DNA from: Thraustochytrium sp. TN22 | Taxonomy: Eukaryota; Sar; Bigyra; Thraustochytrida; Thraustochytriidae | Length of the DNA stretch: 64,000 nt | Assembly (NCBI GenBank): GCA_013306675.1 | Contig: JABLUY010000069.1 | Span: forward strand, 1-64,000 | Direction of reading: 5' to 3' | In this document: positions 4,188-38,376 of the stretch, one piece after another | Layout of the letters: each line of letters starts with the position of its first letter | Numbering within the stretch: the first letter of the stretch is position 1 | The notes under the pieces: model-generated | Seen by the model: only the letters and a program-made list of their open reading frames with translations | The model's database searches: none | Told to the model about the DNA's origin: nothing | Made by a program: the position numbers and the translations under genes

Positions 4188-5496
4188 ACATGAAGAAGTC
4201 GAGACAGGCGTCAAGGTGGCTTCGTTCGCCCGGGCGAGGTAGGGCTCGCGCTTCTCCGCCGCCTGCTGCTCGCCATGCTCGTCTTCGCGGCGTGTCGGTC
4301 ACATCGTCTGGCCGCCCGGCTGAAGAGTTCAAGGGTTCAAAGGGCCTTCAAGTTGGTTTCCTGGACGCAGCCAGAACGGCAGGTTTGACCAGAAACGGGC
4401 CAGAGAAACGGCACTAAGCTTAGTGCAGCGGCGCAGCGCAGCGCTGATGAATGAATCGACGCGTCGACGCGTCGAGAGCTGGACGCCTCGACAGCCTGAC
4501 AGGCCTGTACACCTCGCTGGCTCGCTCGCTTGATCGCTCGCTAGCTAGCTAGAGGCGGGGAACCGTATATCGTCTGCTGCAGCCACGTCATGCCCGGCCA
4601 TGCTGACCGAAAAGCGAACGCATGACGTGACTCGTTGCGGGCTCGCGGCCCGCCGAAGCGTGTCAACGCCAAGCACCCCCTGAGGGGGGAGGAATCAATT
4701 CGTTGCTGTAGCGCCGCTGCTCCGTGGCTGCAGCTGCAACATGTCGCCGCCCTGAACACCCGCTCTATCTGCCCGTTGCGACCGCTGCAACCGTACTCCC
4801 TGTCAGTCCAGGCTGGCTGGAGGTGTCCATGCAGCGCCATCTTAGACTTCGCTAGCTTGGCCTGCATGTGTCTGGCGGACGCACTGCACGGCACATCGCG
4901 TCCTCGCGCCTTCGATGGAAGCAGACGAAGCGCCGCGCTGTGCTGCGCAGTCCGGACGACTGCCCCGGGGCCAGGAACCCCACGCTCTGATCACTCCTCG
5001 TCCCAGGACGTGGCCGTGGTGCGACGAGACGAAGCGAGGCAGACGCGAGGCCAGGCTGCGCCGCGACGCCAGGCCAGGCCAGGCCAGGCCAGGCAAATCA
5101 GAACGAGCTTCCCGCGCAACGCCCGCGGGGAGCTTCATCCGCGCGCCGCGAGGCGGCCGAGGCCCGAGACGAGCCGAGACGAGACGAGATTGGCGCTCCG
5201 CGCCGCGGGCCCCGAGCCGGGGCGGGCCCGGCCGCCGTGTGTGCGTTAGGCTGCGTTGCGCGGCGTTAGGCCAACCAGCCAGGTCTGGCCGCGCCTTGTT
5301 ACCGGTACGAGCCGCAGCCGCCTCCGAGTCGGGCTGGCGGGAGGGAGACGAGCGGGCGCTGGCGCCGCGCTGGGAGCGCGGCGCGCGGGCGGCGGGCGCG
5401 CTCGCGCCGCGGCGGCAAGCACCTTTCCCTGGCGCTGGCGCTCGCGCTCGCGCTCGCGCTCGCGCTCGCGCGGCGGCCACGGCGGGGCGGGCCGGC
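3952..5496. other. Divergent intergenic region, SDS22 / giant membrane protein
   Basis: This is the presumed two-way promoter region. It contains a GGCA microsatellite (4152-4187), a GTCGACGCGTCGACGCGTCGA palindromic stretch around 4457-4477, CTAGCTAGCTAG at 4541-4552, a CCAGG tandem run near 5064-5093 and a GCTCGC tandem run at about 5440-5470 just before the giant gene's start. The plus frame is open from 4915, but its product is Arg/Ala-rich and shows no conserved feature. Confidence 0.55.
4152..4187. repeat. GGCA tetranucleotide microsatellite
   Basis: About nine head-to-tail GGCA units. A second array of the same unit lies at 33838-33883. Confidence 0.95.
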
Positions 5497-8400
5497 ATGG
5501 CGGCCAAGGTGCAGCCGAGCAGCGGCGAGGAGGAGGCGGCGGAGTTTGAAAAGCTGGGCACGCCCGGCGACCCACTGGGCAGGGTGACGACGCGGCGCGA
5601 CGTGAGGTCGTCCGCGGCGGACGCGTCGACGGACGACGGCGGCGAGGAGGATGAGGCCGAGGACCGCGGGCCGGGCCTGCGCGCCTGGCTGGCCAGTTTG
5701 CTGCGCTTGCCGGCGGACTTTGGCAAGTTCTACTTCATCCCCGTGGTCGGCCTCCCAGCGATCGCCATCGGCCTGGAGACCGGCCTGCTTGCACAGGACG
5801 TCGGCGGTGCCGGGCTGGCCGCCGTCATGAAGCTCGACGAGTCCGACGTGCTGCAGGTGCGCAGCACGCTGGATACTATCGCGAGGGACATCGTCATCGT
5901 GCTGGGGCTGCTCGTGACGGCGTCGTTTGTGGTGCTGCAGATGTTCACAGCGAACTTTTTGACGCACACCATCTCGCTCTTCTTCAAAGACCGCGGCGTC
6001 TTCCTTATATTGGCCTTTATTTGCATGTCGGCCATTTACTGCGTGGCGTTGAGCTCGCTCGTGAACGATGCCTTCCACTACAGCGCGCCAATCCGCATCG
6101 CCTACGTGCTGCGGCTGCTCTCGCTGTCCATCACGTACCCATACTTCAACTTCCTCGTAAACTTTCTGAGCCCGGAGTCGCTCATTCGGCAGGTCTGCGA
6201 CACGGCCATCGCCTGCCTGGAGCGTCTCCCAAGCCTGCGCCATGAGTCTGAGCGACCGCGCCGGCGCTCGTCCATCCTGGTCACCGGGAGCGTGCTGGCC
6301 GACCCTTCGGCGCTCAGAAAGCGCCGCGGGGTCTCGACGCGCGCGCTGTCGCGATCCGCGCGGCTTGAGGTGCAGGTCATGCACACGCAAGTTGATTGGA
6401 TCAACGCCGTTGAGCTGCTGACCGATATCGGGCTGTCAACCCTCAAACAAAAGGACCGGGAGAATGCCAATAACGCGATGCTCTCGCTGTACACTATCGC
6501 GTGCGAGTACCTGCACGCCAAGTCGACCGGCGCGCTCCCGCGCAGCTGGTTTCAGCTCGCGCCCGCGCTGCGCCTACGTCCGGACTTCTCCTCGCTCTCC
6601 GCCGACGTCCTGGACGACATGGTGGAGCGCAGGATATGGGCCGAGTGGAAGATGTTGCGCGCATATCAGCTCCTGCTGGAGACCTCCAACACGCTGGAAA
6701 TGTCCAGTCTGTGCGGCCTGGCCGCCTTTTACACCCGCAAAATTGGCGAGCTGGCCGCAGAAAAGGGCCAGACAGAGGTGCTCACGCTTTGCATCAAGTT
6801 TCTCAACACCTACGTCGCGTACTTGACGCAAGCCAAGAACATCGCCGTGCTCTCCGGGGTGCTCAACGAGTATCGCGACTTGGGCATCGAGCTCATCCGC
6901 ATGGACGCATTCTTCCAGAATCTCATGGTCGAGGTCGACCACGGCCTCACCAAGGCGAACTCGCGCGATGGTAGCATCCTGGCACTGCGTAGCGTGACAC
7001 GCAAGTCCCAGCTCGGTCATTACGGCAGTGCCGCGGCCGATGGGACCTCGCTCGACCCGCAGTCGCTTAGCCTGAGCAAGCGTCGCAATACGCGCCGCGC
7101 CAGTTCCGCCCGGCCCGAACTGGGTGGCACACGCAAGTCGGCCGCTCTGGAGAGCCTGTCGGTCTTCTCCATGGGCTCGATCCAGGACATGGGGCCCAGC
7201 GCCGCCAGCATCGGCGAGGGTGGCGCCCAGCAAGCTGGGAACCTCAGCCCGGGCAACTTCAGTCGCCGCGAAAGCGGCCGTCGCAGAGTGTCCACGCTCC
7301 TCAGGAATCTGCGCGGCAGCATACTACCGCGCAATGCCGTGCGCGGCCAGGCCATCGAGCGCCTGCGCGAGCTGCGCGAGACTTTCGCCACGCAAAAGGA
7401 GGCCTACCAGCGCACGCTGTGCCAAATGTCAGCCAATCTGCGCCAGCACCTTGTGGCAACCTCGGACCGCACCATGGGTATCATCGCCGAAACAATCGCG
7501 CATGATATGAGCGAGCTCTGTGCGGAAGCGTACAAGAACGAGTGTGGCGCTCACGAGCAACTACTTTCGGTCTTTCTGACGCTCGATGACACGCAGACGC
7601 AGAGTTCGCAGCGCCAGACGCATCGCGGCATCCGCCGGGCGCAAGTCAAGCTGGCGACCTATTACCTCGTCGGTGGCGACCTTGACCTGGCCCGCGAGAT
7701 CCAGCAAGACATGGATGAGGAGCCCTTCTTCCGCATCCGCCACATCTACCGAGAGCTCGTGGCTATGGACACCGAGAACTTCTGGGAGATCTCTTTTCGA
7801 AGCCGTAACCTCGACTACCTCAGTCCGCAGTACAAAGCGACGCTCAAGACCTTCTTCGGCTGGTTCTCCGACTTCAGCTTCAAGCAGCTCGATGAAACCG
7901 CAGACATTTTCCAGGTCGCGCGGGAGACCAACAACGCATTGCAGGCTAGCGACGATGAGAGCTTGGGCCCATCCACGAGCGGGCGGCTTTCAGAGTCCGA
8001 TGAGGACACGCACCAAGGCGCCTCTATAGTGATGAATGAGGCCGCCGCCGGCGTTGATCTCATGGCGAGCGAGGGCGTCATCTCCACGGAGGGGAGCGAA
8101 GCGCGACGGTCCTCCATCGTCTCCGGCGTCGGTGGCGGGGACTCCACCAGTCTGGGCTTGGAGCGCTCCGAGGCTAAACGGCGGACCCGCGCGAGCCTGG
8201 ACTCAGTGCGCCGCAGGTCTCTGGCCTCTCTGGACGAGCGAAGGGCAAGCGTCATCAGCTTGGCCGAGGATCGCAATGCCGCAGAGAACATCAACTCACA
8301 ATTTGACTCCCTGCGCTGGCGCCTGCAGCTTCGCAGCGGTGAGGATGGCCTCTTGCACATTCTCGGAAGCGTGCTGGCCTACGTCGCGGCTTGTGTCGTG

Positions 8401-11400
8401 GTGGGTCGCCTTCTTGACATGGGCAACTCGGCCTACGAGGCGCCCCTGCTGCTCGATTCATTGCAGTACGAGACGAACACGGTCCTCAACGGCGCGGCAG
8501 TCGTCTCCATCCTCCTCTACGTGGTCCTCTGCGTCACCTCCATGATCATCCTGCAGCTCGTCTCGGCGCGCTACAAGTTTCACCCAGATATCCTCTCGTT
8601 TCTTCGCGACCCAATCCTCTACACCATTCTCTCGCAGATTCTCGTCACCTGCATGGTCGCCACGCTTGCCTCGCTCTTTACTTCGAGCAGCTTCCGGCCA
8701 AACTCCTCCATCCGGGCAATTGTCGTGCTCTTCACCATTAACCTCTCCTTCGTCGTGGTCTACTTCGTGCGTCTCTTTTTCATCATGCAGCCCGACAGCA
8801 TCTTGAGCAAAGTGCAGCGGCGGGCTCTCTTCCACGTAGCCGCCGCGGTCGAGAAGGGACCCGAGCTGCGCGCGCTCGCGCGTCGCTGTCGCGCCGACCC
8901 GAATGCCAACCATACCGCCAACCTGGTGCGCGGGCAGAGCGGCATCTCGGACCGCAAAAAGCACGGCTCCAGGAAGGCGAGCGGACGCGACGACAGCCAG
9001 CACTCGCACAACATGGAGAATGGCGCGCAGTCGGTCACGCAGCGGCGCCTCGAGAGGGGCCAAGAGGAGGTTTGGTTCCATCAGTTTGAAGCGCACGAGC
9101 ACATCAAGCGCATCTGCGACTTCGCCTTCGCCTGCGTGCAGCAATCCGACGAGACCAACCTGAACAAGGCCATCTCCATGCTGCTTCTCGTTATTCGAGA
9201 GTACGCTCGCGTCAAGAACAAGCTGCCGGAAGAGTGGTTCCAGGTGCGCGGTCTGCTGCGGCGCACCTCGGACTTTATCAACTTCTCCGCATACCGCATC
9301 TCACGCGTCACGGAGCAGCGCGTCTGGTTCGAGTGGAAGGTGCTGGCTCAATACCTGCTCATCTTCGACGAGTGCATCAAGCTCAACAGGGCGGACGCCT
9401 GCCAGGCCGTCACGCTCAAGACCGGCAGCATCGCCAAGGGCTTTATCCGTGCCAACGATACGGACGCCTACCGTGTCGGCATCAACTTCATCAACACCTT
9501 TATGCGTCGCGCCATCAACGCAGGCAACGTCGAGGTCGCCACACAGATCATTCAGCAGAATCTCCTGCTCATGCTTGACATTGTACGCCTCAAGTTCGAC
9601 GCACGCACCAAGCCGCGCATGCAGTCCAAGTGGCGCGCCATCATCTCCGATCAGGGTCACTACCAAAAGTACTACGCACAGATCGCCCTTGGCAAGGGCC
9701 AGGGCGTCATTGCAGAGCACGTGGCCAACGCGCTGGGCCAGGTCTGCAGCACTGCCCTCGTCGTGGATGAGATCGTGCACATTGACATGCTCGAGCTCCT
9801 GCTCACAGTCGATGACACAGCAGACGGGGACCAGGACTCACTCGTCGGCATCCGGCGTGCGCAGGCAAAGCTCGCGCTCTTCTACCTCTCCACCAAGAAC
9901 GACAATTTCGCGCGGATGGTGGCCGGCGACTTCGACGTTGAGACGCCCAAGCGCCTGCGGGACATCGTCGACGAGATGCTCTCCACGAATCGCGCCGAGT
10001 ACTGGGAGGTCTCCGAGCATGGCGTGCCCTCGGAATTTCTCTCTGACCGGGAGAAGTCCCTGCTCCCCAAGTTCTTTCTATTCATCGAGGAAGCCAAGGC
10101 TGACGGCAGTGATGGAGGCGAGAGCACCGACGACCAGGAGAAGAAGGAGGACGCTGCCGACCCAAAGCGAACGGAAAAGGAGCAAGGCAAGGATGCCGAC
10201 GACCCTGGGGACTCGAACGAAAAGGCCAGGAACGGGCCGGAGACACAGCCGGAGGCGCTGTCGGCAGGTGGTGGCCTCGGTGAAGTCTTTGCTGCCGCGT
10301 CCGAGAACGAGGTTGCGGCGGGAACGGGCGACCTGTGCGAAGACACGGCAGCCGTTGGGGGGTCGCATCTGAAAGAGATGGAGCACGAAATGCGCCATGT
10401 GGAGCAGGAATTGGATGCGGATCAAGCATCAGCCGCTCCCATGAGCACGCCGGAGCGTCTCCTCGAAGGCGAGGAGGCGCCCGTGACGGAAAAGACGATG
10501 CCCGACCATGCCGCAGATCCGCTCGCGAACAAGCTTGCAGAAGCGCTGTCAAACAGCGCGGACCTTATCCCGGCCAACTCCCTGTCCGAGTACGTGGAGG
10601 TCGCCACGAGAAAGCAGGAAAGCGGGCAGATGGGCTTCAAGCCACGCAGCATCGAGGAGGCCGCAGAGCGTCGGCGACGCATGCAGGAGACGCAAATCGC
10701 AAACGTGAGCAGGCAACGGCAGCAAACGCATGCGTATCGGTCGCGCGTGCTACCGCGGCGCTCAGGCATCACAAGCAGCGGCCTCATGACGAGCGGGAGC
10801 ATTCTGGACGATGGGGAGGAGTCCCAGCTGGAGGACTTCTTGGACATCATCTTCACGCAGGCCCAGGGCCAGCTGCCGCTATGGGAGCTTTGGTCCCGCT
10901 TCCTGAACCCGATGGCTATAGTCGTGGGCATTACGGGTTGCGCTCTGACGGGGAGCATCCTCATGGATAGGGCCCTGTACGGTGGTGGCACGGAGAAGAT
11001 CTCTGCAGCAAGCTTCTGGGCACGGAGCGGCGCGGCCAAAGACACGACGCTGGCCGCCGAGCTCGTGATCCGTGTTTTCTCCGTGGTGATCATGTGCTCG
11101 CTCATCGCGCTGCAAAAGTCCGGCTCGCGCGTCGTACGGCACGTGTGGATGCTCTTCCGGTCCACGCCGTGGGTGCGCAGCATCTGGATGCTGCACATGT
11201 TCGCGGTGATGCTCGCAGTGTGGAACGTGTACTGGTCGCTGTGGACATTGCGGCCGACGCTGGCGGCTACAAGCGTACTCCTGGCGTGCGTGAGCATCAT
11301 GACGCTGTACCCGTACTTTTCGTACTTCTTCGTCTTTCTAGACGAGAACCGTCTGCTGACGTACGTGGTGCTGCAGGACTTCCGTATGTTGTCGGAACTC

Positions 11401-14400
11401 TCCCAGCGCCCGGAATCCATGACCAAGAAGGACATGCTGGGCTTGGTGCGCTCAATGCAGCGTGTATCAGACTTCGCATCGTCCACGATTCGCATCAAAG
11501 ACCGCACGAATGCGTACAAGTCGGTGACGGCCCTCTTCTCGATCGCACGCTGCTACATGAACCTCAAGGGGCGATTGCCGCTCGAGTTTTTCGGTGCCTT
11601 CATTGACGAGCCGGAGATCGCGCTCTCGTCGGACTTCGCCCGCCTCTCACCGGACTTTCGTCGCACGATCTGCGAGGACCAGACCTGGGTCGAATGGAAA
11701 TTTCTTCGTCATTACCTCTTTCTCTTCCAGGAAAGCCTGGGCCACATGGACGACGTGTGCTACCGCATCGTCATTTCGACGAGGGAGCTGGGCGAATCGG
11801 CTATGCGCAAGGGCGACCTAGCGCTGCTTGACCTTTGCATCAAGTTCCTCAACACCTTCTTACGGAGCGCGCTCGACCGCTTTGACATCCGGCTCTTCTA
11901 CAACATCATGTTCCAGTATCGGCGGCTGGCGGAGAACATGATCAACGGACGCCTGCTCGCGCCCAACAGTATCGTGAGTCCGGACGACACGGAGCGGTAC
12001 GTGGAGGATGTCGCCTTCTACTTCCGTCACTACTCCCTTGCGGGTCAGGCAAAGGGCATCGCATTCGTGACCGAGCTGGTGGCTCACGACCTGTCGATGC
12101 TCTGCATGACGGCTGCGCGCCGCAACGCCAAGTGCCACGACAAGTTGGTGGATATCTTTTTGAAGGCCTTCAGCTCGGAGACGCCAGTAGGCCGGCGCGG
12201 CGTGCGCAAGGCGCAGCTCAAGCTGGCCGCCTTCTACCACTCGCACGAGAGGGAGCGCACGGCGGACCTCATCCTGGCCAGCGTGCTGCGCGAGGCAGAT
12301 CCCTTTCAGGTTGTGCTCGCCTACGCTGACCTGCACGCGCCAGAGGTGTCACTCTCGTTCTGGGAGGTGAACGAGCGCATGTACAACATCGACCACATGA
12401 CGGCAGCGCAACACGAGGCCGTTGAGGCGCTCCTGCGTAAGTTTCCGCTGGAGCTGCGCGAGCGCTGCATCGAGTACGAGCATCGCGTGCACAAGCGCAC
12501 CAACGTGCGCGCGAGCAGCGAGGTCTTGGACACGAGCGAGAATGCGGCCATTACGCAGACGAAGCAGGCCGAGAACAGCAGCCTCGAGGCCGTCTTCAGC
12601 GGCTTCTCGCGCGAGATCGTGCTCCGCGCGCGGGACAACGCGCGGCGCGCCAAAAAGCGCGAAGCAGAGGCAGACGCCAAGAGGAAGTCGAGCTCCTTTC
12701 TCTCCTTCAAGGGCCGCAAGACCAAGCGCCGCGGCGGCGGTGGCGGTGGTGGCGGGGGCAGCACGGGCGCCTCGGCGCGCTATCTTCTTCGACAGATGAG
12801 CGCGCCTGCCCGAGAGCTGACCAACGCGGCGTGGAGCGCGCGCCCGAGCAGTGAGCCTGCTCCTGCGGCCGCTGAGCGCGCGGACCCTCTGGCGAACCTG
12901 GACCTCGGCGGCACCATGGCGCAGGCGAGCCGCAAGGCGTGGTTTGCGGTCGTCCTCTTGCTCTCGCTGGCGTTTGCCTGCAATTTGCTCGTCTCGCTTG
13001 CCGACGCAAACGCCAACATCGGCCCTGGACACATCCTGGACTTCATGTCCGAGGCGTCAGTACATGACCGTCAACAGACGCTCAAGTTGCTGGCCAAGGC
13101 CTCGGTGCTCATCTACTGCATCGTGCTAACGCCGACGCTGATCATGCTGCAAATCAACTCGCGCCACCTGCTGGGTGTCATTGCGGAACAGTTTTTCAGA
13201 GACCGCCGCGTGTACACCCTGTTGACTTTCTATTCGATCGCCTGCGTGTACTGCCTGTGCGCGCACTTCGTGACGACGGCCGACTATGCGCCACGCTTTG
13301 CGCTCCTGGTCAGCGGCTCAGTGATCGTGATGCAGGTGACCTTTCTCTTCCCATACTTCGCAACGGTCTTTGAGTTCCTCGACCCGCAGGACGTGGTGCT
13401 GCGCATGCTCAAGCGGGCACTGGCCTCTTGCGAGGCGTGCACCAAGGGACACCGGCCGTCGGTCGCACATGTCACGGCGCAGCAGATGGTGCTGGACAAG
13501 ATTTTGCAGCAACTGACCGGCTTCGCGGGAGCCTCGCTCCTGGAGAAGGACAAGAACAACTTTACGACCGTGGTTCGCGTGCTCTCGGCTTTTGTCGAGT
13601 TCTACGTACCCAACAAGGCACGCATGGACAGCAAGTGGTACAACGCGACGGGCAAGCACCTGCGCAACTCGCAAGACTTCGTGTCGCTTGATTCAGAGCA
13701 GCTCGTTACAATGTCGCGCGAGAGGACGTGGGTGGAGACAAAGCTGCTGCGGCAGTTTCTCTCGCTTTTCAACGAAGCGCGCAACAGCATGCAGGAAACC
13801 TGCTTCTTGGTGGCCATTGAGACAGTCAAAATGGGACAGTTGGCCATCGAGACGAACGACTTCCACACGATCGCCATTGTGATCCGTATGCTCAACACCT
13901 ATCTCCGGTCGTGCCTCAACCAGCGTGCGATCCGGGCCATGTACAACACGCTGCATCAGTATCGTCAGTTTGCCGAGCTGCTCATCGTCACGTCCGCCGG
14001 CGAGCGCGCGCCTCTGAACCGCTTCGCCATCAGCATCGCGCAATACCTGCGGTACTACGGCGCGCTGGCCGCAACGATGCGCCTCGACTTCGTCGTGCAG
14101 GTCATCGCCTTCGATCTGGCGCGCATCGCCGAGACTGCCTTCGCGCTCGGCTTCGACAACAACATGACCAACGACTCGGTACTGGTGGAATTGCTAGCGC
14201 TCTTTGACAGTATGCAGCCAAACGCCAAGAAGCCGGTGCCCGAATCGCCCGCCGCGTACCGCGAGGCTGTCAGCATGGAGCACCAGGTGAACCTGGAGTC
14301 CATCTCGCGCGCCTGTCTCTGCCTCGCGACGTTGTACATGGAGATGGGAGACAACCACCGGACCAGAATTGTGACAGAGAAGCTCACGGAGGTATGCACG

Positions 14401-17400
14401 ATGGTCATTCTGGATCGCGCGCGAGATAAGATCGAGCGGTGCACAGAGCGCGATTTCTGGGAGGCCAACGACCGCGGATCCAACTTTGACTACCTCCCCG
14501 AGGTGCGCCGAAGCAAGCTGGTCGACATCTTCGTCATCTTGCGGACGGAGACGAATGGCATCCGCGAGCGAGAGGCGGCCATCGTGCAACGCAAGGATCT
14601 CTTCGACATGTCGCGGATGAGAGGCAGCAATGGAATGGGCGCCTTGCTGCGGCGCTCCTCGGCCGGGAGCACCTCGGGCCCGAGCATGGCCGCCATCACA
14701 CTTGGCGCCGCGACCATGCTCCGCAAGATTAAACGCATTCGAGAGGCGCGCGAGCAGCATGAGCAGCAAGAAAGGGAGGCTGCCGCCGAAGTGGCGCAGG
14801 CGCCCTCGGAGGACGACGCCTCGCTCCAGATCTTCCAGGACAAGGACGGCACCAAGGCGCGCCAGCGCCAGTCGATTCGAGAGATGGCGCATGCCACCCG
14901 CGTGCGCCAGTCGCGCCGCGGCAGTGCCAACAACCTGACGCACTTCTTCGTCGGCGACCACCCGGCGCGCAACCCGCGCAGGCTTTCCATCGGCGAGGGC
15001 GAAATGGACGGTGCAAGCGTCGGAGCAGCCTTGCCGAGCTCTGGTGCAGGCGCCTCGGTCGCGGAGCCGACGGTCAACGCTTCACCCTCCAAGTACACCT
15101 TCCGGCCTCCGCAGACGTCCATGTCCTCCTTGGACGCGGCATCGGTGGTGGTCGCCAAGGAAACGCGCTGGCCACGTCTCGCAGGTCTTGCCGATCGCCT
15201 CGGCAGCCTGGTGGGCCACGGCACCGCCGAAGAGCAAGGCCGCAGCGGGGGCGGGTCGACCGGCGGCAACGCGTGGACCTGGTCGTCCATCACGATCCCC
15301 AGCACCGTACTCTTGATCCTTGTGGTCTCCAGCAGCCTTCAGTGCGCCTTCGACGGTGATTGTGGCGCCCTTGTGGCCCGCCACCCATTCGCCGTGCATG
15401 CTTCTGCTGATCTTCTCGCCAGCACGCAGCGCACGGTGGCTCTACTTATGATCACCTTTCTGGGCAGCGTCGTGACGGTGTCGACGATCGTGCTGCAGAT
15501 CGTGTCGACACGTTACACCCCGCGTGTCGCGATCCTCTTTTTGCGCAACTCGCGCATCGCCGTCAGCTTGACCATCTTCTTTGGATCCACGGTCTTTGCA
15601 CAACTTCAGGCCATGCAGTCGACCTCGACCATCATGAACCGCACGGGCTTCGTAACATCGCTGTTTCTCATGGCCGTGTCCTTCTGCCTGCTCATGCCCT
15701 ACATCGCTCACCTGCTCAAGTTCCTAGACGCGGCTCACATCTTCCGCGAAGTCGGCCATGAGGGTCTCGAATACGCATTAGCCGATGCCAAGGACAGCAG
15801 CGGCACGAACGCCACCTCTTTGAGCACAACGTCCTTCACGTCGCGCCTGGGGGCAACCACGCAGCTTGGACGCTTTGCCGGCTGGGTCTTTCCCGCGTCA
15901 CACGGAGGAGCCAGGGCGAAGATCAGAGCTGGTGCTTCGCGGGCCGTGCAGCCTGACCTGATGCAGCCGCTCTCCGCGCTTGCCTCGCCGACGTCGCCCG
16001 TGACGCCGAATCGTGAGAGTCGCCGTGGGCGGCGCCAGAGTGGCGGCGACAAACGGACGGAGCGAGACGCCGCCGAATTGGCCTCTCCAGGAAAGTCTGC
16101 CACGGAGGAGGACGAGACGAAGAAGCCGATGATGGAGAACAAGGAGAGGAAGGACGCCAATGGTGATGCCGACGCCAATGCCAACGCCAGCGCCAACGCC
16201 AGCGCCAACGTGGAGGTGGAGGTGAAGTGGAAGGTAAATGTGGACGTGAACGCCAGCATCGGCACCAGCGCCGCGGCTGCATCATCCACGGGACCCGAGG
16301 AGGCCGCCGATAGCGACCAGGCCGCCGACGCCAAGATGACCGAGGACGGGACTGCCGACGCTGTATCCAAAGTGACGCACCAGGTCCGCCTGGAGAGGCA
16401 GCGCGGCGTTCTGCAGTCGCTGGACCAGATCTCCGACTTCGCGGTGACCGCACTACGCCTCAAGGACAAGCACAACGCGTTCCATGGCATTGACCTTTTG
16501 TGCGCGTTCGCTATTGCCTACATCCAGGGCAAGAAGGCGCAGTGCGACCAGCGCGACCAGGAGAGCGGGGCCTCAATCAGGGGCCCTTCGCCGGCGATTC
16601 GTAACCTACCGGTGACGGAGGCGGTGAATCGCGACCCGGACTTCACCAGCATGTCGGATGCAATCCTGCGTGACCTGGAGACAACGCTGACGTGGGTGCT
16701 GTGGAAAGCGCTGCGCCAGCTGCTCAAGATGTACGAGCTCTCGCTGGGCAAGTTCAACGACGCGATTTTGCGCATCTCACGCGGTCTGCGGCACATCGGC
16801 CAGGCCGCCGCAGCGCAAGATGACATGGACGCTTCGCAGCTCTGCGTGAAGTTCATGAATACTATTCTGCAACTGGCCATCACACAGAACAACGGCCGCG
16901 CTGCTGACACCGTGCTGGTGCAATACCGCTATCTCATTGAGTACGTGCTGACGCAGCGCGTCATGCACGAGGTGGTGAAGGCAGAGAGCGAGGCGGATGC
17001 GGAGCAGGATTCCGACGGATCGCAAGACTCCGACGAGGAAGAACAGGCGCGGCGCACGCCCTGGTCCAACCTTGCGTGCGATATGGTCGGATACTTGCAC
17101 CACTACGCCATCATGTCCAGCATCTCGTTGCACAGTATGACGGGTCGCATCGTCTTTGACATGTGCTCGCTCGCGGCCTTCGCCCGTCACTTTGAGCTCC
17201 GCGAGGTACAGCAGTTCGTGCACCAGGAGATCTTCAGCTTCCTGCTGGACTGTCCGGTCGCGGACGCCGAGGCTGGTATGTCGGACGCGGAAAAGGTGGA
17301 CCTCTTACCACGCGGTATTCTGCGCGCCGTCATTAAGCTCGCGAGCATCTACATGTCGGAGTTCGGCGACACCGTGTCAGCGATCGGCGGGGACGTGCGC

Positions 17401-17799
17401 AAGATCAAGGTGGCGCTGCGCCACCTGAAATCCTCGACCCTGGAGGATATCTGGAAGGACTTCAAGACGTTAAGCTCCAAGGACGACATCATGGTCTCGG
17501 ATCGCGCGGTCAACATTGATGCGCTCACCATCAAGCAAGCCGCCGCTGTAAGCACCTTTTTACGCTCTTTCGCCATCGATGTGGCCTCCATTGAGTCCGG
17601 CGATGACATCGTGAAGCGGCTCGTGGCACTCAAGCGCCCGTCAGTGCTGCCGGACCAGGCTCCCGCCATCAGCGTGGCCCATCAGCGCGTGAGCAGCGGG
17701 CCGCAGAAACCTAGCTCGCCATCGAGCGCCTCTTCTGTTTCTGCTGCGGCTACTGGTGCTTCCATTGGTGCTGACACTGCCGACGCTGCTCCACGCTGA
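5497..17799 (+). CDS. Giant membrane protein with five tandem DUF2254-like modules
   Basis: A single uninterrupted 12.3-kb frame, 4,100 residues, ending in TGA. Five modules each have about four hydrophobic segments: residues 78-224, 951-1097, 1805-1948, 2481-2628 and 3266-3410. Each membrane block is followed by a long cytosolic-type helical domain. The second membrane helix carries a VLQ signature (FVVLQMFTANF, MIILQLVSARY, LIMLQINSRHL, TIVLQIVSTRY). Each soluble part repeats the same anchors in order: KDRxNA-like, WxEWKxLR, LCIKFLNT, RGIRRAQxKLA and FWEV. The plan resembles the bacterial DUF2254 membrane family, whose function is unknown; the concatenation is not known to me. The linkers are charged and low-complexity (a Gly run near 12735-12760, NA-rich repeats near 16160-16210). 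The start at 5497 (GGCATGG) was chosen because the open frame upstream from 4915 is composition noise. The location (surface, contractile vacuole or organelle) is unknown. Confidence 0.85.
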   Translation: MAAKVQPSSGEEEAAEFEKLGTPGDPLGRVTTRRDVRSSAADASTDDGGEEDEAEDRGPGLRAWLASLLRLPADFGKFYFIPVVGLPAIAIGLETGLLAQDVGGAGLAAVMKLDESDVLQVRSTLDTIARDIVIVLGLLVTASFVVLQMFTANFLTHTISLFFKDRGVFLILAFICMSAIYCVALSSLVNDAFHYSAPIRIAYVLRLLSLSITYPYFNFLVNFLSPESLIRQVCDTAIACLERLPSLRHESERPRRRSSILVTGSVLADPSALRKRRGVSTRALSRSARLEVQVMHTQVDWINAVELLTDIGLSTLKQKDRENANNAMLSLYTIACEYLHAKSTGALPRSWFQLAPALRLRPDFSSLSADVLDDMVERRIWAEWKMLRAYQLLLETSNTLEMSSLCGLAAFYTRKIGELAAEKGQTEVLTLCIKFLNTYVAYLTQAKNIAVLSGVLNEYRDLGIELIRMDAFFQNLMVEVDHGLTKANSRDGSILALRSVTRKSQLGHYGSAAADGTSLDPQSLSLSKRRNTRRASSARPELGGTRKSAALESLSVFSMGSIQDMGPSAASIGEGGAQQAGNLSPGNFSRRESGRRRVSTLLRNLRGSILPRNAVRGQAIERLRELRETFATQKEAYQRTLCQMSANLRQHLVATSDRTMGIIAETIAHDMSELCAEAYKNECGAHEQLLSVFLTLDDTQTQSSQRQTHRGIRRAQVKLATYYLVGGDLDLAREIQQDMDEEPFFRIRHIYRELVAMDTENFWEISFRSRNLDYLSPQYKATLKTFFGWFSDFSFKQLDETADIFQVARETNNALQASDDESLGPSTSGRLSESDEDTHQGASIVMNEAAAGVDLMASEGVISTEGSEARRSSIVSGVGGGDSTSLGLERSEAKRRTRASLDSVRRRSLASLDERRASVISLAEDRNAAENINSQFDSLRWRLQLRSGEDGLLHILGSVLAYVAACVVVGRLLDMGNSAYEAPLLLDSLQYETNTVLNGAAVVSILLYVVLCVTSMIILQLVSARYKFHPDILSFLRDPILYTILSQILVTCMVATLASLFTSSSFRPNSSIRAIVVLFTINLSFVVVYFVRLFFIMQPDSILSKVQRRALFHVAAAVEKGPELRALARRCRADPNANHTANLVRGQSGISDRKKHGSRKASGRDDSQHSHNMENGAQSVTQRRLERGQEEVWFHQFEAHEHIKRICDFAFACVQQSDETNLNKAISMLLLVIREYARVKNKLPEEWFQVRGLLRRTSDFINFSAYRISRVTEQRVWFEWKVLAQYLLIFDECIKLNRADACQAVTLKTGSIAKGFIRANDTDAYRVGINFINTFMRRAINAGNVEVATQIIQQNLLLMLDIVRLKFDARTKPRMQSKWRAIISDQGHYQKYYAQIALGKGQGVIAEHVANALGQVCSTALVVDEIVHIDMLELLLTVDDTADGDQDSLVGIRRAQAKLALFYLSTKNDNFARMVAGDFDVETPKRLRDIVDEMLSTNRAEYWEVSEHGVPSEFLSDREKSLLPKFFLFIEEAKADGSDGGESTDDQEKKEDAADPKRTEKEQGKDADDPGDSNEKARNGPETQPEALSAGGGLGEVFAAASENEVAAGTGDLCEDTAAVGGSHLKEMEHEMRHVEQELDADQASAAPMSTPERLLEGEEAPVTEKTMPDHAADPLANKLAEALSNSADLIPANSLSEYVEVATRKQESGQMGFKPRSIEEAAERRRRMQETQIANVSRQRQQTHAYRSRVLPRRSGITSSGLMTSGSILDDGEESQLEDFLDIIFTQAQGQLPLWELWSRFLNPMAIVVGITGCALTGSILMDRALYGGGTEKISAASFWARSGAAKDTTLAAELVIRVFSVVIMCSLIALQKSGSRVVRHVWMLFRSTPWVRSIWMLHMFAVMLAVWNVYWSLWTLRPTLAATSVLLACVSIMTLYPYFSYFFVFLDENRLLTYVVLQDFRMLSELSQRPESMTKKDMLGLVRSMQRVSDFASSTIRIKDRTNAYKSVTALFSIARCYMNLKGRLPLEFFGAFIDEPEIALSSDFARLSPDFRRTICEDQTWVEWKFLRHYLFLFQESLGHMDDVCYRIVISTRELGESAMRKGDLALLDLCIKFLNTFLRSALDRFDIRLFYNIMFQYRRLAENMINGRLLAPNSIVSPDDTERYVEDVAFYFRHYSLAGQAKGIAFVTELVAHDLSMLCMTAARRNAKCHDKLVDIFLKAFSSETPVGRRGVRKAQLKLAAFYHSHERERTADLILASVLREADPFQVVLAYADLHAPEVSLSFWEVNERMYNIDHMTAAQHEAVEALLRKFPLELRERCIEYEHRVHKRTNVRASSEVLDTSENAAITQTKQAENSSLEAVFSGFSREIVLRARDNARRAKKREAEADAKRKSSSFLSFKGRKTKRRGGGGGGGGGSTGASARYLLRQMSAPARELTNAAWSARPSSEPAPAAAERADPLANLDLGGTMAQASRKAWFAVVLLLSLAFACNLLVSLADANANIGPGHILDFMSEASVHDRQQTLKLLAKASVLIYCIVLTPTLIMLQINSRHLLGVIAEQFFRDRRVYTLLTFYSIACVYCLCAHFVTTADYAPRFALLVSGSVIVMQVTFLFPYFATVFEFLDPQDVVLRMLKRALASCEACTKGHRPSVAHVTAQQMVLDKILQQLTGFAGASLLEKDKNNFTTVVRVLSAFVEFYVPNKARMDSKWYNATGKHLRNSQDFVSLDSEQLVTMSRERTWVETKLLRQFLSLFNEARNSMQETCFLVAIETVKMGQLAIETNDFHTIAIVIRMLNTYLRSCLNQRAIRAMYNTLHQYRQFAELLIVTSAGERAPLNRFAISIAQYLRYYGALAATMRLDFVVQVIAFDLARIAETAFALGFDNNMTNDSVLVELLALFDSMQPNAKKPVPESPAAYREAVSMEHQVNLESISRACLCLATLYMEMGDNHRTRIVTEKLTEVCTMVILDRARDKIERCTERDFWEANDRGSNFDYLPEVRRSKLVDIFVILRTETNGIREREAAIVQRKDLFDMSRMRGSNGMGALLRRSSAGSTSGPSMAAITLGAATMLRKIKRIREAREQHEQQEREAAAEVAQAPSEDDASLQIFQDKDGTKARQRQSIREMAHATRVRQSRRGSANNLTHFFVGDHPARNPRRLSIGEGEMDGASVGAALPSSGAGASVAEPTVNASPSKYTFRPPQTSMSSLDAASVVVAKETRWPRLAGLADRLGSLVGHGTAEEQGRSGGGSTGGNAWTWSSITIPSTVLLILVVSSSLQCAFDGDCGALVARHPFAVHASADLLASTQRTVALLMITFLGSVVTVSTIVLQIVSTRYTPRVAILFLRNSRIAVSLTIFFGSTVFAQLQAMQSTSTIMNRTGFVTSLFLMAVSFCLLMPYIAHLLKFLDAAHIFREVGHEGLEYALADAKDSSGTNATSLSTTSFTSRLGATTQLGRFAGWVFPASHGGARAKIRAGASRAVQPDLMQPLSALASPTSPVTPNRESRRGRRQSGGDKRTERDAAELASPGKSATEEDETKKPMMENKERKDANGDADANANASANASANVEVEVKWKVNVDVNASIGTSAAAASSTGPEEAADSDQAADAKMTEDGTADAVSKVTHQVRLERQRGVLQSLDQISDFAVTALRLKDKHNAFHGIDLLCAFAIAYIQGKKAQCDQRDQESGASIRGPSPAIRNLPVTEAVNRDPDFTSMSDAILRDLETTLTWVLWKALRQLLKMYELSLGKFNDAILRISRGLRHIGQAAAAQDDMDASQLCVKFMNTILQLAITQNNGRAADTVLVQYRYLIEYVLTQRVMHEVVKAESEADAEQDSDGSQDSDEEEQARRTPWSNLACDMVGYLHHYAIMSSISLHSMTGRIVFDMCSLAAFARHFELREVQQFVHQEIFSFLLDCPVADAEAGMSDAEKVDLLPRGILRAVIKLASIYMSEFGDTVSAIGGDVRKIKVALRHLKSSTLEDIWKDFKTLSSKDDIMVSDRAVNIDALTIKQAAAVSTFLRSFAIDVASIESGDDIVKRLVALKRPSVLPDQAPAISVAHQRVSSGPQKPSSPSSASSVSAAATGASIGADTADAAPR

Positions 17800-20835: not shown

Positions 20836-23800
20836 ATGGATGGCTCGGATGAGTTCGCTGTGTCTGCGGCCGGATCCACGCAATCCACCACGCCGCCCGT
20901 GCCGCCCGCGTCGAACCTACACCCATCGAAGCTGGACGAGTTCCGTGAGCTGTGCGTCTGCACAGCTTCGGACCGGAAGTCCGGCGAGATCTTCGTCTTC
21001 GAGAATCCCTGCGACGCAGTGGAGATGCTGCGCGCGCTCCAGGTGGACTCGACCATGACGGTCTCCAAAGGCGTCTATTTCAACAAGCGCGATGGTGGGT
21101 CTGGATGGACTGGCGGGTTCTACTCGTTCATCTGGCAGCTGAAGGAAGTCTCTTTCAAGGGCGGCTCGCCGAGCAGGGACGGCAGGCGCGCCTCAGTGCT
21201 TTGCATGGAGAAAGACCACGCGGAGTCCATGCCTGAGGAGATGGGAATGACTCTCACGGCGCTCAAGCGCAAACGGCCGAAGGATGTTCTTCTCAGAGAC
21301 GTGACGCGGTGCGAGCAGGCGCTACTCAATTCAACGGCTGTCCAGACCAGCCGCAACCTCCCAGTTCGGAGTTCTGATCGACACAGATTCTTCAAGACCG
21401 ACCAGAAGGGAAGCTCAGACTCGAGCCACTGGGACAAGCTCGGTCTGGTGGACGGCTCGGACGCGCGCGATCCGGCGGCGCTGAAGCTGAAGTTGGTCTG
21501 CAGGTCGAAGGAGGCGAAGCGGTGCTACGAGAACCCGAGCAAGGACGAGTCGCTCAAGCAGCTAAAACATGCGCTGCACGACCTCTTTGTCCTGCAGGAG
21601 CTGCTCCGAGAGATCGTCGAACGGAGGAACAGCAATGGCGGGCCGGCGCGGCTTCGCATCGGCGCAACGCATTGGAGGTCAAAGTGGTTCGAGGATCGCA
21701 CGAACGCGCTGCGTCTAGCTCGTGTCGAAGCCATTCAACGTGGCCGACTCCCTCCTGCGGTGCAAAGAGCACACCCGAGAGAGAACCCCGATGAGCTGCT
21801 GGAGAAGATGCATGCATGCTTCTACCATCTCGGCATGCACGCGAAGTGGCTTCGCAAGGTTGCTCCAAGGGGTGCTGCCTCGTCTGCAGGCTTGGACGCC
21901 GCGCAGTCGGCGGCCGTGGACGCCGCGCAGTCGGCGGCCGTGGATGCCGCGCAGTCGGCGGCCGTGGACGCCGCGCAGTCGGCGGCCGTGGACGCCGCGC
22001 AGTCGACGGCCGAGGGTGCCGCGCTGTCGACGGCCGTCGGCGCGCCTGCGATGGACATCCAGCAGCAAGCCTCAAAGGATACGGCCGTGGTGAATCTCGA
22101 CGAAGAGCTGGTGCGTGGCGCGTTCGCGGCCTGCGGTAAGCTTGTGGAAATGGCGCAGACGATCCCGGAGCTGGCTTCGTTCACGCCGCCGCCTCGAGAG
22201 AACCTCAACAAGCTGAAGGGGCGCGCGCCCCGTACAAACCATGACGATGGGTGCGACGTCATGGTGGAGATCAAGTTCTTCAACAACCATCATGGCCTGG
22301 CCGTGATCCTGCATGGTCACAGCAGGGCGACCAGCGACATGCTGCACACGTGTGGCATTACCGAGCGCCCCCTTGACTGCCGGCTGAGTAGCCACATGAG
22401 GCACCAAATCGAGGAACTCTTTCATGCTGGCTTCACGAAGCAGCAGATCTACGAGAAGCTCACCCAGCCTCGCAGCGTCCAACTTGCTCGCCAAGGACTG
22501 CGACACGTTCGCCCCGCCAGTCGAGACGACCTCCTGAGCATGGCCGACATTGAGTCCATCGAAGCCTCGAAGTGCTGGCAGGGCGTCGCGTGGAGGAACA
22601 AGGCCGTCGACGAGGACGACGTCATGAACCGTGTCAAGTCAAATCCCAACTTCTACCGGGTGTACAAGCCCTATGGTGTGAGTAAGGATGACTCGCGCTG
22701 CGTCGGTATGCATCACTTCGGAGAGGATGCGGTGGCCCCGAACGACCTGTACTTTATCGCCATGGCGGACGCGGAGATGCTGAGGATGCTGCGAAGCCAT
22801 GGCTCCCATCTCATCTTCGACGCCACACACAACGTCAGCAGCAAGGACCAGGTCAAGCTTTTTACGGTCATGGTCGCTGACAGCTACAACCGTGGCCGCG
22901 AGGTACTCTTTGTGGTGCTCAACAGCGAGACGACGGAGACGTACAAGCTTGTTTGGCAAGTGCTGCGCTCACTGCACGGCGGCGCCTCTTGGAAGCCCAA
23001 CTTTCTCTTCTCGGACATGGCCGAGCCTCCGATCAGCGCTGCGTGGGAGGTCTTCGGCAGCATCCCGCGCTTCTGGTGCACGTGGCACTGCGTCAAGGCG
23101 ATGCACAAAAACATCAAGCTCAAGGCGAGGGGCAGGATCGGCCCCAACGATCGTGGTGCACAGAGTGATGGCCCGGGTGAGGAGAGTGGGAGCAACAACA
23201 GCAGCCGTCCCAGGCGGGCAACGAGAAGACAGAGTGACAGGGATCGTCTCATCTTCGACGTGTACAACGCGCTGCACATGATGATGTTTGCGGACTCCGA
23301 GGAGCGGCTTAAAACGCTCCGTTTCTACATTCTGGAGCTGCTGCGGAGCGACCACCAGACAGAGCTTCTCGCGTACCTCGAAACGTACTGGCTGGCAGAC
23401 CTCGAGCCGTGGTGCCTAGTCTACCGCTCTGCCGCGGTGAACAGTGCAGACGAGGTGATCCGGACCACGATGCTGCTCGAGAGCTGGCATCATAAGCTCA
23501 AGGTATACCTCTTCAAGAACAAGAGCAACAAGCGCGTCGGGTACCTGCTCTTCAAGCTGGAAGCTCGCCGGCGCACCATGGTGGACCTCATGTACTTGGA
23601 GGTGAACGGGCGCACCGCCCTACCGCGTGCGATGGTGAAATTCACGCCCGAAGAGACCTGGGCGATGCTGGAGGACGCTGCTGAGGATGCATTCGCTGAC
23701 ATCGGCTCTGATGGGGAGGTCCAGCATGATGTCGGAGCGGCTACAGCTGCAAGCGCCGAGAGCGACGCCGAGAGCGACGGCCCGCTCGGCCTCGTGGGGG

Positions 23801-24720
23801 AGAGCGAGGATGACGATGAGTACGCGAACGCGCAGCGCCACGCATCGCTCGTCGACTCCCTGCGAGATATTGAGCGGAGGCTGGAAGATATCGTGCAAGG
23901 CACGGAGCTGGCCGCCGTCCAGTCCTTGGCTGGACTTGATGCCGTCAAGCAGTCGGCCCTCGCGATCATTGCGAAGGTGCAGCTGATTGCGGGCGGGCAG
24001 CATAGCTTAGCGCCTGGGCCAGTCTCCATGACACCTGATGGCCTCGTACGCATGCCAGAGGACCTCCGGAGCCATCGACGCGCGGACCAGGTCCAGCCAC
24101 GCTACGATGCTAGGAGGCCCAGGCAGCGCCTGCGCACGAGCGGGCGGCACCAGGTGATCGCAGCCGAGCGTCAAGCTGAGGAGGAAGCGGCAGCCCATGA
24201 GGGTCGTCTCGCTCGCCGCGGGGACCCTGACGATGAGGAGCTCGATGTCGACAGCACGGGCATCCAGAACTCTCCTTCTGGGGGCAACGCTGCTCACGCG
24301 CTGCCACTTATGCCGACAAGAAACAAGAGAAGGCGTAGGGAGGCTTTTGCCGCACGAAATGAAGCCAGGCGACTCAATGGCGAGTGCTTCAACCCGGGCA
24401 CGCTTTGCCTCGGCTACCAGCAGTCCATCAGTGGATTTCTCGATGCCGTCGATCGCATCGCGGCTGGGGACCTTGACGAGAGAGTTGTAGACTCGCAGGA
24501 CACGGAGCCGAGCGCTACGCAAGACGCCGCTTTGACGCGTGGCGAGGGGCTCGACGGCTTCATCGAGTCGAGCGCGTTGCGGGATGTCGTCGAGGTACTC
24601 GACCACGCCAGGGAGAACGAGCGACGACGCGAACAGGATCAGAGGGACCGCGAGACGAGGCTCCTTGGACTTATGCCCCATCTCCAACAGCCCCATCTTC
24701 GTTTCCCACACCGCCACTGA
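20836..24720 (+). CDS. MULE (Mutator-like) transposase, apparently uninterrupted
   Basis: A 1,294-residue protein with the layout of a Mutator-like transposase. An N-terminal Cys/His region (CDVMVEIKFFNNHHGLAVILHGHS..., about residues 470-485) resembles the DNA-binding part of such enzymes. The catalytic core has HLIFDATHNVSSKD (first Asp), NFLFSDMAEPP (second Asp), FWCTWHCVKAMHKNIK and, later, MLLESWHHKLKVYLF, which supplies the expected Glu. A 24-base minisatellite adds five to six DAAQSAAV repeats near residues 354-403. The C-terminal 300 residues are acidic, low-complexity and coiled-coil-like. The frame is intact, so this is either a recently active element or a domesticated gene. I could not find inverted ends or a target duplication, so the element's limits are undefined. 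Confidence 0.82.
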   Translation: MDGSDEFAVSAAGSTQSTTPPVPPASNLHPSKLDEFRELCVCTASDRKSGEIFVFENPCDAVEMLRALQVDSTMTVSKGVYFNKRDGGSGWTGGFYSFIWQLKEVSFKGGSPSRDGRRASVLCMEKDHAESMPEEMGMTLTALKRKRPKDVLLRDVTRCEQALLNSTAVQTSRNLPVRSSDRHRFFKTDQKGSSDSSHWDKLGLVDGSDARDPAALKLKLVCRSKEAKRCYENPSKDESLKQLKHALHDLFVLQELLREIVERRNSNGGPARLRIGATHWRSKWFEDRTNALRLARVEAIQRGRLPPAVQRAHPRENPDELLEKMHACFYHLGMHAKWLRKVAPRGAASSAGLDAAQSAAVDAAQSAAVDAAQSAAVDAAQSAAVDAAQSTAEGAALSTAVGAPAMDIQQQASKDTAVVNLDEELVRGAFAACGKLVEMAQTIPELASFTPPPRENLNKLKGRAPRTNHDDGCDVMVEIKFFNNHHGLAVILHGHSRATSDMLHTCGITERPLDCRLSSHMRHQIEELFHAGFTKQQIYEKLTQPRSVQLARQGLRHVRPASRDDLLSMADIESIEASKCWQGVAWRNKAVDEDDVMNRVKSNPNFYRVYKPYGVSKDDSRCVGMHHFGEDAVAPNDLYFIAMADAEMLRMLRSHGSHLIFDATHNVSSKDQVKLFTVMVADSYNRGREVLFVVLNSETTETYKLVWQVLRSLHGGASWKPNFLFSDMAEPPISAAWEVFGSIPRFWCTWHCVKAMHKNIKLKARGRIGPNDRGAQSDGPGEESGSNNSSRPRRATRRQSDRDRLIFDVYNALHMMMFADSEERLKTLRFYILELLRSDHQTELLAYLETYWLADLEPWCLVYRSAAVNSADEVIRTTMLLESWHHKLKVYLFKNKSNKRVGYLLFKLEARRRTMVDLMYLEVNGRTALPRAMVKFTPEETWAMLEDAAEDAFADIGSDGEVQHDVGAATAASAESDAESDGPLGLVGESEDDDEYANAQRHASLVDSLRDIERRLEDIVQGTELAAVQSLAGLDAVKQSALAIIAKVQLIAGGQHSLAPGPVSMTPDGLVRMPEDLRSHRRADQVQPRYDARRPRQRLRTSGRHQVIAAERQAEEEAAAHEGRLARRGDPDDEELDVDSTGIQNSPSGGNAAHALPLMPTRNKRRRREAFAARNEARRLNGECFNPGTLCLGYQQSISGFLDAVDRIAAGDLDERVVDSQDTEPSATQDAALTRGEGLDGFIESSALRDVVEVLDHARENERRREQDQRDRETRLLGLMPHLQQPHLRFPHRH
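21895..22044 (+). repeat. In-frame 24-base minisatellite inside the transposase gene
   Basis: Units start at 21895, 21919, 21943, 21967 and 21991 and are almost identical. A degenerate sixth starts at 22015. Each encodes DAAQSAAV. The near-identity at third positions points to recent expansion. Confidence 0.95.
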
Positions 24721-37730: not shown

Positions 37731-38376
37731 GGCCGCCCGCGCGGCGCCGCGCGCGCCGCCGGGCGCCGCCGAGCCGCGCGCCGCGCAGCACCGCCGCGCC
37801 GCGCGCCGCCGCGCCGCCGCCGCCGCGCGCGCGCGCGCGAGCGCTGCCGCGGGATGCAGGTCTGCGGCGCCTTCCGCGCTGCTCTCTCTGCTCAGCCGCG
37901 CCTGCCACGTGCAGCCGCGTTTGAAAATTATTAGCCACAAGCAGGCGCAGCGCGCGCGCCGCCCAACTGCCGCGCGGTACCGGATTCCGGGACGGTCCCG
38001 CGGGAAAAACCGCGGCGCGCTCGGGCTCCGTGCATCATCATCGTCAGCATGTCATGATCTTGAAGAATCATGACGCGGTCGAGGCCAGGCCAGGCGAGGA
38101 GCGCGGCGAGGACGCGGAGAACAGAGCACACGGCCGGGCGATGCGGCGAGGCCCGCTCGCGACCTGCTGGCCTCTGGGAGGAGGGCCGAGGCGTGCTGGA
38201 GGCTGGGGAGCGAGCTTGCAGTGGTCCTGGCGAGGAGACGTGGCGGTGAGGAGGCGCGGGGGCGGTGTCGTAGGCCTCGGAGAGCTGGGTTTTATTGAGG
38301 TACTAACTGGGAGCTACGTGGCTGTCTCTGCATGGGGCGTTCGCCGACTCGCAAAGGCATCGCGGCCGAGCTGGCT
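37731..38376. other. Intergenic region, Tudor-ankyrin start / flavoprotein 3' end
   Basis: No gene is seen. The first 130 bases are CG-only 5' leader. A near-perfect hairpin (GTCATGAT / ATCATGAC) lies at 38051-38074. Confidence 0.55.

Follow-up and report, generated by a model that had tools for sequence, protein, structure and literature searches.

Five concatenated long-form DUF2254 modules in a giant predicted membrane protein of Thraustochytrium sp. TN22

A single open frame encodes five diverged membrane modules

The window analyzed here, i.e., the 64,000 nucleotides at positions 1 to 64,000 of contig JABLUY010000069.1 of Thraustochytrium sp. TN22, contains a gene whose predicted product is, judging from its sequence, almost certainly a natural concatemer of five long-form DUF2254 membrane units (M1 to M5) joined in one chain. 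The frame on the plus strand is open from 4915 to 17799 and, read from its probable start codon (ATG at 5497), encodes 4100 amino acids without a stop. All ten module pairs are similar by BLAST, and the original prediction of a giant protein in which one module is present in five diverged copies within a single frame is thus borne out. The gene can be described as a single exon on the basis of this uninterrupted open frame. The domain limits given in Table 1 are all approximate.

The 4100 stop-free codons have a G+C content of ~62%. Among the 11 stretches outside the module cores, GC3 was 0.76-0.93 in nine and lower at two (0.68 and 0.62; a 19-residue stretch and a 60-residue tail), and the in-frame synonymous score was top or tied in eight. 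It is highly improbable that separate genes or a pseudogene array only mimic one frame here; such an artefact would fit the three non-core stretches in which the reading frame does not have the top codon score, but it is opposed by the length of the stop-free run at this G+C content, by the coding-like codon use of the other eight stretches, by the recognition of all five modules by a bacterial HMM, and by a divergence among the modules that is too great for a misassembled repeat. The window as a whole is eukaryotic, as indicated by the domains of other genes within it, i.e., a KN homeobox protein (48634-49686), a RabGAP-TBC protein (45147-46910) and a frame with Tudor and ankyrin domains (33972-37940).

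Table 1. Approximate positions, in the window, of the giant gene and of the predicted domains and linkers of its product
Feature	Position	Strand	Evidence
Giant gene for the membrane protein with five modules (4100 codons and a stop); frame open back to 4915	5497..17799	+	
M1 membrane domain with four helices (N-terminal half of DUF2254)	5719..6216	+	PF10011 E=4.3e-7, profile 3-168
M1 helical domain; low-complexity insert at 6967-7413	6376..7896	+	bacterial long-form HMM, domains 1 and 2
M1-M2 linker, with RRxS motifs	7897..8298	+	
M2 membrane domain	8344..8826	+	bacterial HMM iE=2e-14; no own PF10011 match
M2 helical domain	9055..10131	+	bacterial HMM iE=3e-57
M2-M3 linker	10132..10878	+	
M3 membrane domain	10903..11391	+	bacterial HMM iE=1.2e-78 (whole module), AlphaFold model; no own PF10011 match
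M3 helical domain	11425..12486	+	AlphaFold model, bacterial HMM
M3-M4 linker	12487..12903	+	
M4 membrane domain	12922..13431	+	PF10011 E=7e-8; bacterial HMM iE=7e-87 (whole module)
M4 helical domain	13459..14586	+	bacterial HMM
M4-M5 linker, with RRxS motifs	14587..15228	+	
M5 membrane domain; top PF10011 match among the five modules	15271..15801	+	PF10011 E=5.4e-13
M5 low-complexity insert, long, separating membrane from helical domain	15802..16368	+	
M5 helical domain; C-terminal part partly degenerate, FWE motif gone	16393..17616	+	bacterial HMM iE=1.6e-29 and 8e-4

Similarity and divergence among the modules

Module-versus-module BLAST matched all pairs with E values from 1.2e-5 to 5e-34 and identities of 20-33%; the best bit scores ranged from 36.6 for the weakest pair (M2-M5) to 125 (M3-M4), as compared to a best score of 30.8 bits (mean 22.1) in 200 shuffled sets. 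Self-comparison is therefore significant for 10/10 pairs, and the modules do not fall into different families, as a profile of bacterial long-form proteins recovers all five. Hydropathy places the first membrane helix of the modules near residues 75, 950, 1803, 2477 and 3259, i.e., 875, 853, 674 and 782 residues apart, and the copies are thus unevenly spaced, as had been described.

The proposed composition of each module, i.e., four predicted membrane helices followed by an all-helical domain, agrees with hydropathy and with an AlphaFold model of M3. Four hydropathy segments exceeded the cut-off in M2, M4 and M5, and three did so in M1 and M3, in which the fourth lies under the cut-off; the M3 model has helices at all four membrane places, and these are presumably membrane-spanning. 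On the other hand, the motif series originally reported for every copy (KDRxNA, WxEWKxLR, LCIKFLNT, RGIRRAQxKLA, FWEV) holds for all five only as an order, since several motifs are altered or lost: KDRxNA is missing from M2 and changed in M4 and M5, WxEWKxLR is changed in M2, M4 and M5, RGIRRAQ is gone from M4 and changed in M2, M3 and M5, and FWE reads YWE in M2 and is gone from M5.

Of the 33 helical columns conserved in the family, 20-27 are kept in each giant module (22 of 32 in M5), as are 6-8 of the 14 conserved membrane columns, in a comparison that covered the family without loci L117, L118 and L159. PF10011 matches M5 more strongly than any other module, yet the end of the helical domain is weakest there; M2 and M3, whose helical domains are well kept, are not matched by PF10011 when searched alone. 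As M5 has lost conserved helical residues and M2 and M3 lack such a match, these sequence patterns suggest that not every unit need be active.

Relationship to ordinary DUF2254 proteins

A Pfam search with the whole giant protein matched DUF2254 (PF10011) at E=1.1e-25 over four stretches. The DUF2254 link proposed initially therefore stands for the whole protein; it is confined to the membrane half, and the modules are not ordinary DUF2254. Module by module, matches above the cut-off were found in M1, M4 and M5 and covered at most positions 2-168 of the 368 in the profile, while searches with M2 and M3 alone returned only unrelated matches below the cut-off; it is BLAST and the bacterial long-form profile that connect these two modules with the other three.

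No match in M1, M4 or M5 extended past position 168, i.e., into the central beta domain of PF10011 (profile ~186-266), and this domain is also absent from the AlphaFold model of M3 (pLDDT 85.2, pTM 0.81), which is all helical, with low confidence in its first 50 residues. The input for this model comprised the five modules and 15 bacterial membrane halves; membrane halves alone were used because an alignment with whole bacterial proteins was judged to misplace the C-terminal half. By comparison, when an ordinary DUF2254 protein from a bacterium was modeled (pLDDT 85.9), four long helices at the N-terminus were followed by a beta region (217-286) and by further helices at the C-terminus. As the central beta domain is missing, we rejected the assignment of the modules to ordinary DUF2254, and the giant protein is not filed as such.

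Comparison of the long form with ordinary DUF2254 by hhalign gave a probability of 99% (E 2.3e-18) over 290 columns, with the KDRxNA helix pair aligned on the SPGxNDPxTA pair. When the C-terminal pair (ALSPGxNDPxTA) was compared to the helical part, HMMER found no significance and hhalign gave a weak value of 0.043 before enrichment; with the enriched alignment, the helical part alone reached P=0.0011 but a probability of only 21%. Weak matches in the KDRxNA/SPGxNDPxTA register were found in 48 of 50 ordinary DUF2254 proteins, which are related to one another and not independent. Overall, these comparisons make a relationship between the helical part and the C-terminal helices of ordinary DUF2254 likely but not settled.

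Foldseek aligned 88 columns of the DUF2254 beta region with the C-terminal domain of pyrimidine nucleoside phosphorylase (2.1 A, probability 1.00, E=0.73). In a pyrimidine nucleoside phosphorylase gene (L114, 362-1741), positions 186-266 of the DUF2254 profile match the PYNP_C domain at E=3e-5, which is below the Pfam cut-off. This weak evidence suggests a PYNP_C-like beta domain in DUF2254.

Sequence searches of the PDB returned nothing for the long-form or the ordinary profile and two matches for the giant protein (E 0.28 and 0.52), which we take as chance. With Foldseek and a threshold of E 0.001, ordinary DUF2254 had no match in the PDB, and M3 had one (E 5e-4, with low TM-scores of 0.27/0.31), to a circular tandem-repeat protein made by design; helical repeat proteins make up most of the top Foldseek matches of M3, which had none in BFVD. 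These PDB searches of ordinary DUF2254 and M3 returned no channel fold, and Pfam matched no MS_channel domain in the giant protein. A literature search by the names DUF2254, IPR018723 and PF10011 yielded no function for DUF2254 in the papers viewed. Predicted knots and slipknots in DUF2254 are reported in one paper (PMC11184937); some ordinary DUF2254 proteins are predicted there to be knotted by way of their C-terminus, an arrangement that an internal module should have difficulty in maintaining.

A long-form DUF2254 family in bacteria

By sequence comparison, the modules belong to a separate long-form DUF2254 family, which we define here by a membrane half followed by an extended helical domain with the motifs KDRxxA / WxExK / FNT / QYRxLAE / GVRKAQ / FWE..DR. 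The giant's modules have this domain order, with the loss of single motifs from M2, M4 and M5. A PF10011 sweep found matches in 20 of 99 genomes of the planctomycete phylum, including longer frames in which the match is confined to the membrane half, and in 15 of 98 genomes of the cyanobacterial phylum, with one match so confined. Whole modules are carried by 10 of 12 candidate bacterial frames (that of L112 is shortened by a masked or unread stretch); the other two are a nucleoside phosphorylase and a frame that we read as kinase-like. In one genome of the cyanobacterial phylum (L134), three adjoining frames, two of them short, match the DUF2254 membrane half.

An HMM of the host's six helical domains matched these same 10 of the 12 candidates with E values from 1e-33 to 1e-98, as compared to E 2.3 for the best of 600 shuffles. 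Conversely, an HMM of nine bacterial long-form proteins recovered all five giant modules as well as a single-module paralogue from the host. With a match beyond the membrane half as the criterion, and the best candidates scored so that the counts are lower bounds, the long form was found in at least 20 of 294 genomes of the phylum of Aquisphaera insulae (Planctomycetota), at least 4 of 194 genomes of that of a Nodosilinea genome (Cyanobacteriota) and at least 1 of 198 genomes of that of a deltaproteobacterial genome; seven of the 20 and one of the 4 had themselves served to build the search profile. Among 398 genomes of the Pseudomonas phylum (Pseudomonadota), none had a long form among the best candidates scored, and 42 had a match to the membrane half only.

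The module had been expected to be single in bacteria, and each of 24 sampled long-form loci does carry one (24/24; one of these is a fragment, and five have frames that overrun the locus edge and gave one match each in the genome search). The long-form loci are L103, L105-L113, L115-L118, L140-L159 and L218. Neither Pfam, in four proteins scanned, nor NCBIfam, in three (with bacterial matches far below the cut-offs), provided a model for the long-form helical half, and NCBIfam returned nothing for the giant protein or for its two host relatives, the C177 and C418 proteins. A plasmid collection searched with M3 and one bacterial long form gave no match, and a scan of viral contigs by exact peptide patterns gave no relative.

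Relatives in the host genome and phylogeny

A search of the host genome (37.9 Mb, 453 contigs), with only parts of the DUF2254 family as queries, found three such genes. Beside the giant, they comprise a long form with one module on contig C418 and, on contig C177, an ordinary DUF2254. The C418 paralogue (L008, 5382-6098 and 3275-5494, minus strand) has a frame change near a G run, after the first membrane helix, which may be an assembly error, an intron or a real change. A further match, on contig C430, fell below the cut-off and was rejected; we read it as an unrelated small membrane protein. MscS domains occur at at least nine places elsewhere in the host genome.

Two trees, built from different alignments, both unite the five giant modules with the C418 module in one clade (support 96/96 and 96/92) and place planctomycete sequences as its sister clade (95/91 and 98/95). 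The trees have long branches, and the program cautioned against long-branch joins. They were built without fragments and second copies (L112, L134, L157 and unfetched copies), and the second build dropped L159 and added L218. A clade of the five giant modules apart from the C418 module is neither shown nor rejected (p-AU 0.527; support 60/79), and, as the forks among modules are not resolved, we rejected any reading of the duplication order from the tree. The simplest reading of these sequence relationships would be one acquisition from planctomycete-like bacteria, followed by duplication and fusion; shared ancestry is a possible alternative.

The presence of a single-module gene in the host, together with the strong divergence of the giant's modules, would also fit modules that act singly, in the manner of transporters or receptors, with concatenation only raising copy number and setting stoichiometry. 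We consider this rather improbable, as a benefit from copy number alone would give no obvious reason for five strongly diverged units to stay together in one chain of 4100 residues.

Gene neighborhoods

We scanned 65 flanking ORFs from 39 ordinary DUF2254 loci (the flank sample covered 48 of 80 loci, five of them without a neighbor, and 83 flanking ORFs, of which a few are DUF2254 itself). A gene for an MscS-type channel adjoined the DUF2254 gene in 7 of the 39 loci; in six cyanobacteria it lay directly upstream, and in one Nitrospirae bin downstream. Five of the six cyanobacterial MscS genes are 73-79% identical to the first, and the MscS cases are thus few and not independent of one another. 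The same scan found NhaA three times, Ion_trans three times and AI-2E transporters twice.

MscS was also directly upstream of ordinary DUF2254 in 4 of 13 annotated plasmid loci (three from Deinococcus, one from Methylobacterium), with a 4-base overlap of the two genes in three of the four cases. This plasmid sample was not random: it comprised 14 loci, 13 of them annotated, drawn from 30 of 80 records, the first six had flanks of 500 bases only, and two of the cases (D. ficus and D. psychrotolerans) were chosen after one Deinococcus record had shown MscS. YetF genes were near DUF2254 in 5 of the 13 plasmid loci, NhaA in one, and a cation antiporter plus a potassium channel in one. The loci that pair DUF2254 with MscS are L023, L027, L031, L034, L050, L051, L077, L019, L210, L211 and L212.

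Overall, the neighbors of ordinary DUF2254 genes point to ion or osmotic homeostasis, and, for ordinary DUF2254 only, an osmotic or mechanical role gains in plausibility from those of the MscS type. Around the long forms, no family recurred as a main annotation among the ten genes Pfam-scanned from seven loci (of 106 other ORFs; crude ORF calls missed the long-form frame itself in 7 of 20 loci). As no family recurs there, the MscS link to the giant protein is an analogy across subfamilies with different domain make-up. On this analogy, the giant protein may work in membrane ion or osmotic homeostasis, which is our best guess at its function and to which we give somewhat less than an even chance.

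Linkers and possible function

The 1365 linker and insert residues contain 13 RRx[ST] sites, one overlapping pair included, as compared to 2.7 expected, and none of 2000 shuffles reached as high a number; this excess was noticed after the fact. Among six other ORFs of the window tested, one also showed an excess, although a milder one (5 versus 1.3 expected; 7/300 shuffles); this large ORF (20836-24720) lies downstream of the giant gene and has a MULE transposase domain. The RRxS sites of the linkers are putative kinase sites, a reading made post hoc.

These linkers would suit a poreless scaffold, in which five anchors and five cytosolic helical platforms recruit partners and the RRxS linkers serve as 14-3-3 or kinase docking sites. 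The better conservation of the helical than of the membrane columns and the resemblance of M3 to helical repeat proteins are consistent with such a scaffold. However, all five membrane domains are still recognized by the bacterial profile, which goes beyond what plain anchoring needs, and the MscS neighborhood of ordinary DUF2254 suggests the handling of ions or tension; we regard the scaffold as possible but unlikely.

The most far-reaching reading takes the giant protein as a covalent five-unit channel or tension sensor, which would have arisen when a long-form DUF2254 unit from planctomycete-like bacteria was duplicated within the gene, and which would be tuned by phosphorylation of its linkers; with all of its parts taken together, this reading is speculative and quite unlikely to hold in full.

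In the reading that we favor, the giant protein is a covalently linked assembly of five membrane units. An even number of membrane helices per unit would place both ends of the unit on the cytosolic side, so that units could be fused without a change of topology. If the bacterial unit works as an oligomer, the giant protein would be five units fixed as a pseudo-oligomer in one chain, in which divergence of the units could go along with fixed positions and a division of labor. The helical domains might assemble on the cytosolic side as a ring or platform, with phosphorylation of the flexible, RRxS-rich linkers as a switch. A closed ring of the five units is a fairly unlikely arrangement, and the pseudo-pentameric channel suggested initially is a possibility. 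By analogy with the neighborhood of ordinary DUF2254, the giant protein could be a channel itself or a regulator of MscS-type channels.

Comparison with known systems

These data describe a unit that is single in the sampled bacterial loci and has become a five-unit eukaryotic chain with ~20 predicted membrane helices. They also expose a long-form DUF2254 family of which databases label the membrane half only, and the MscS neighborhood provides a functional lead for DUF2254, i.e., a partnership with mechanosensitive channels.

Ordinary DUF2254 (PF10011, IPR018723), a bacterial and archaeal membrane protein, has its membrane half in common with the modules of the giant protein. It consists, however, of one module of ~440 amino acids with a central beta region, whereas the giant's module has no beta region and a longer helical domain and is present fivefold. 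The long-form proteins of planctomycetes and a few cyanobacteria have the whole module and its motifs as in the giant protein, but one module each as compared to five.

Voltage-gated sodium and calcium channels with four domains, to which we found no relation of the giant protein, are an example of an oligomer whose similar subunits have become diverged repeats of a single chain. The giant protein would follow the same principle of a fused oligomer, with five units as compared to four in these channels.
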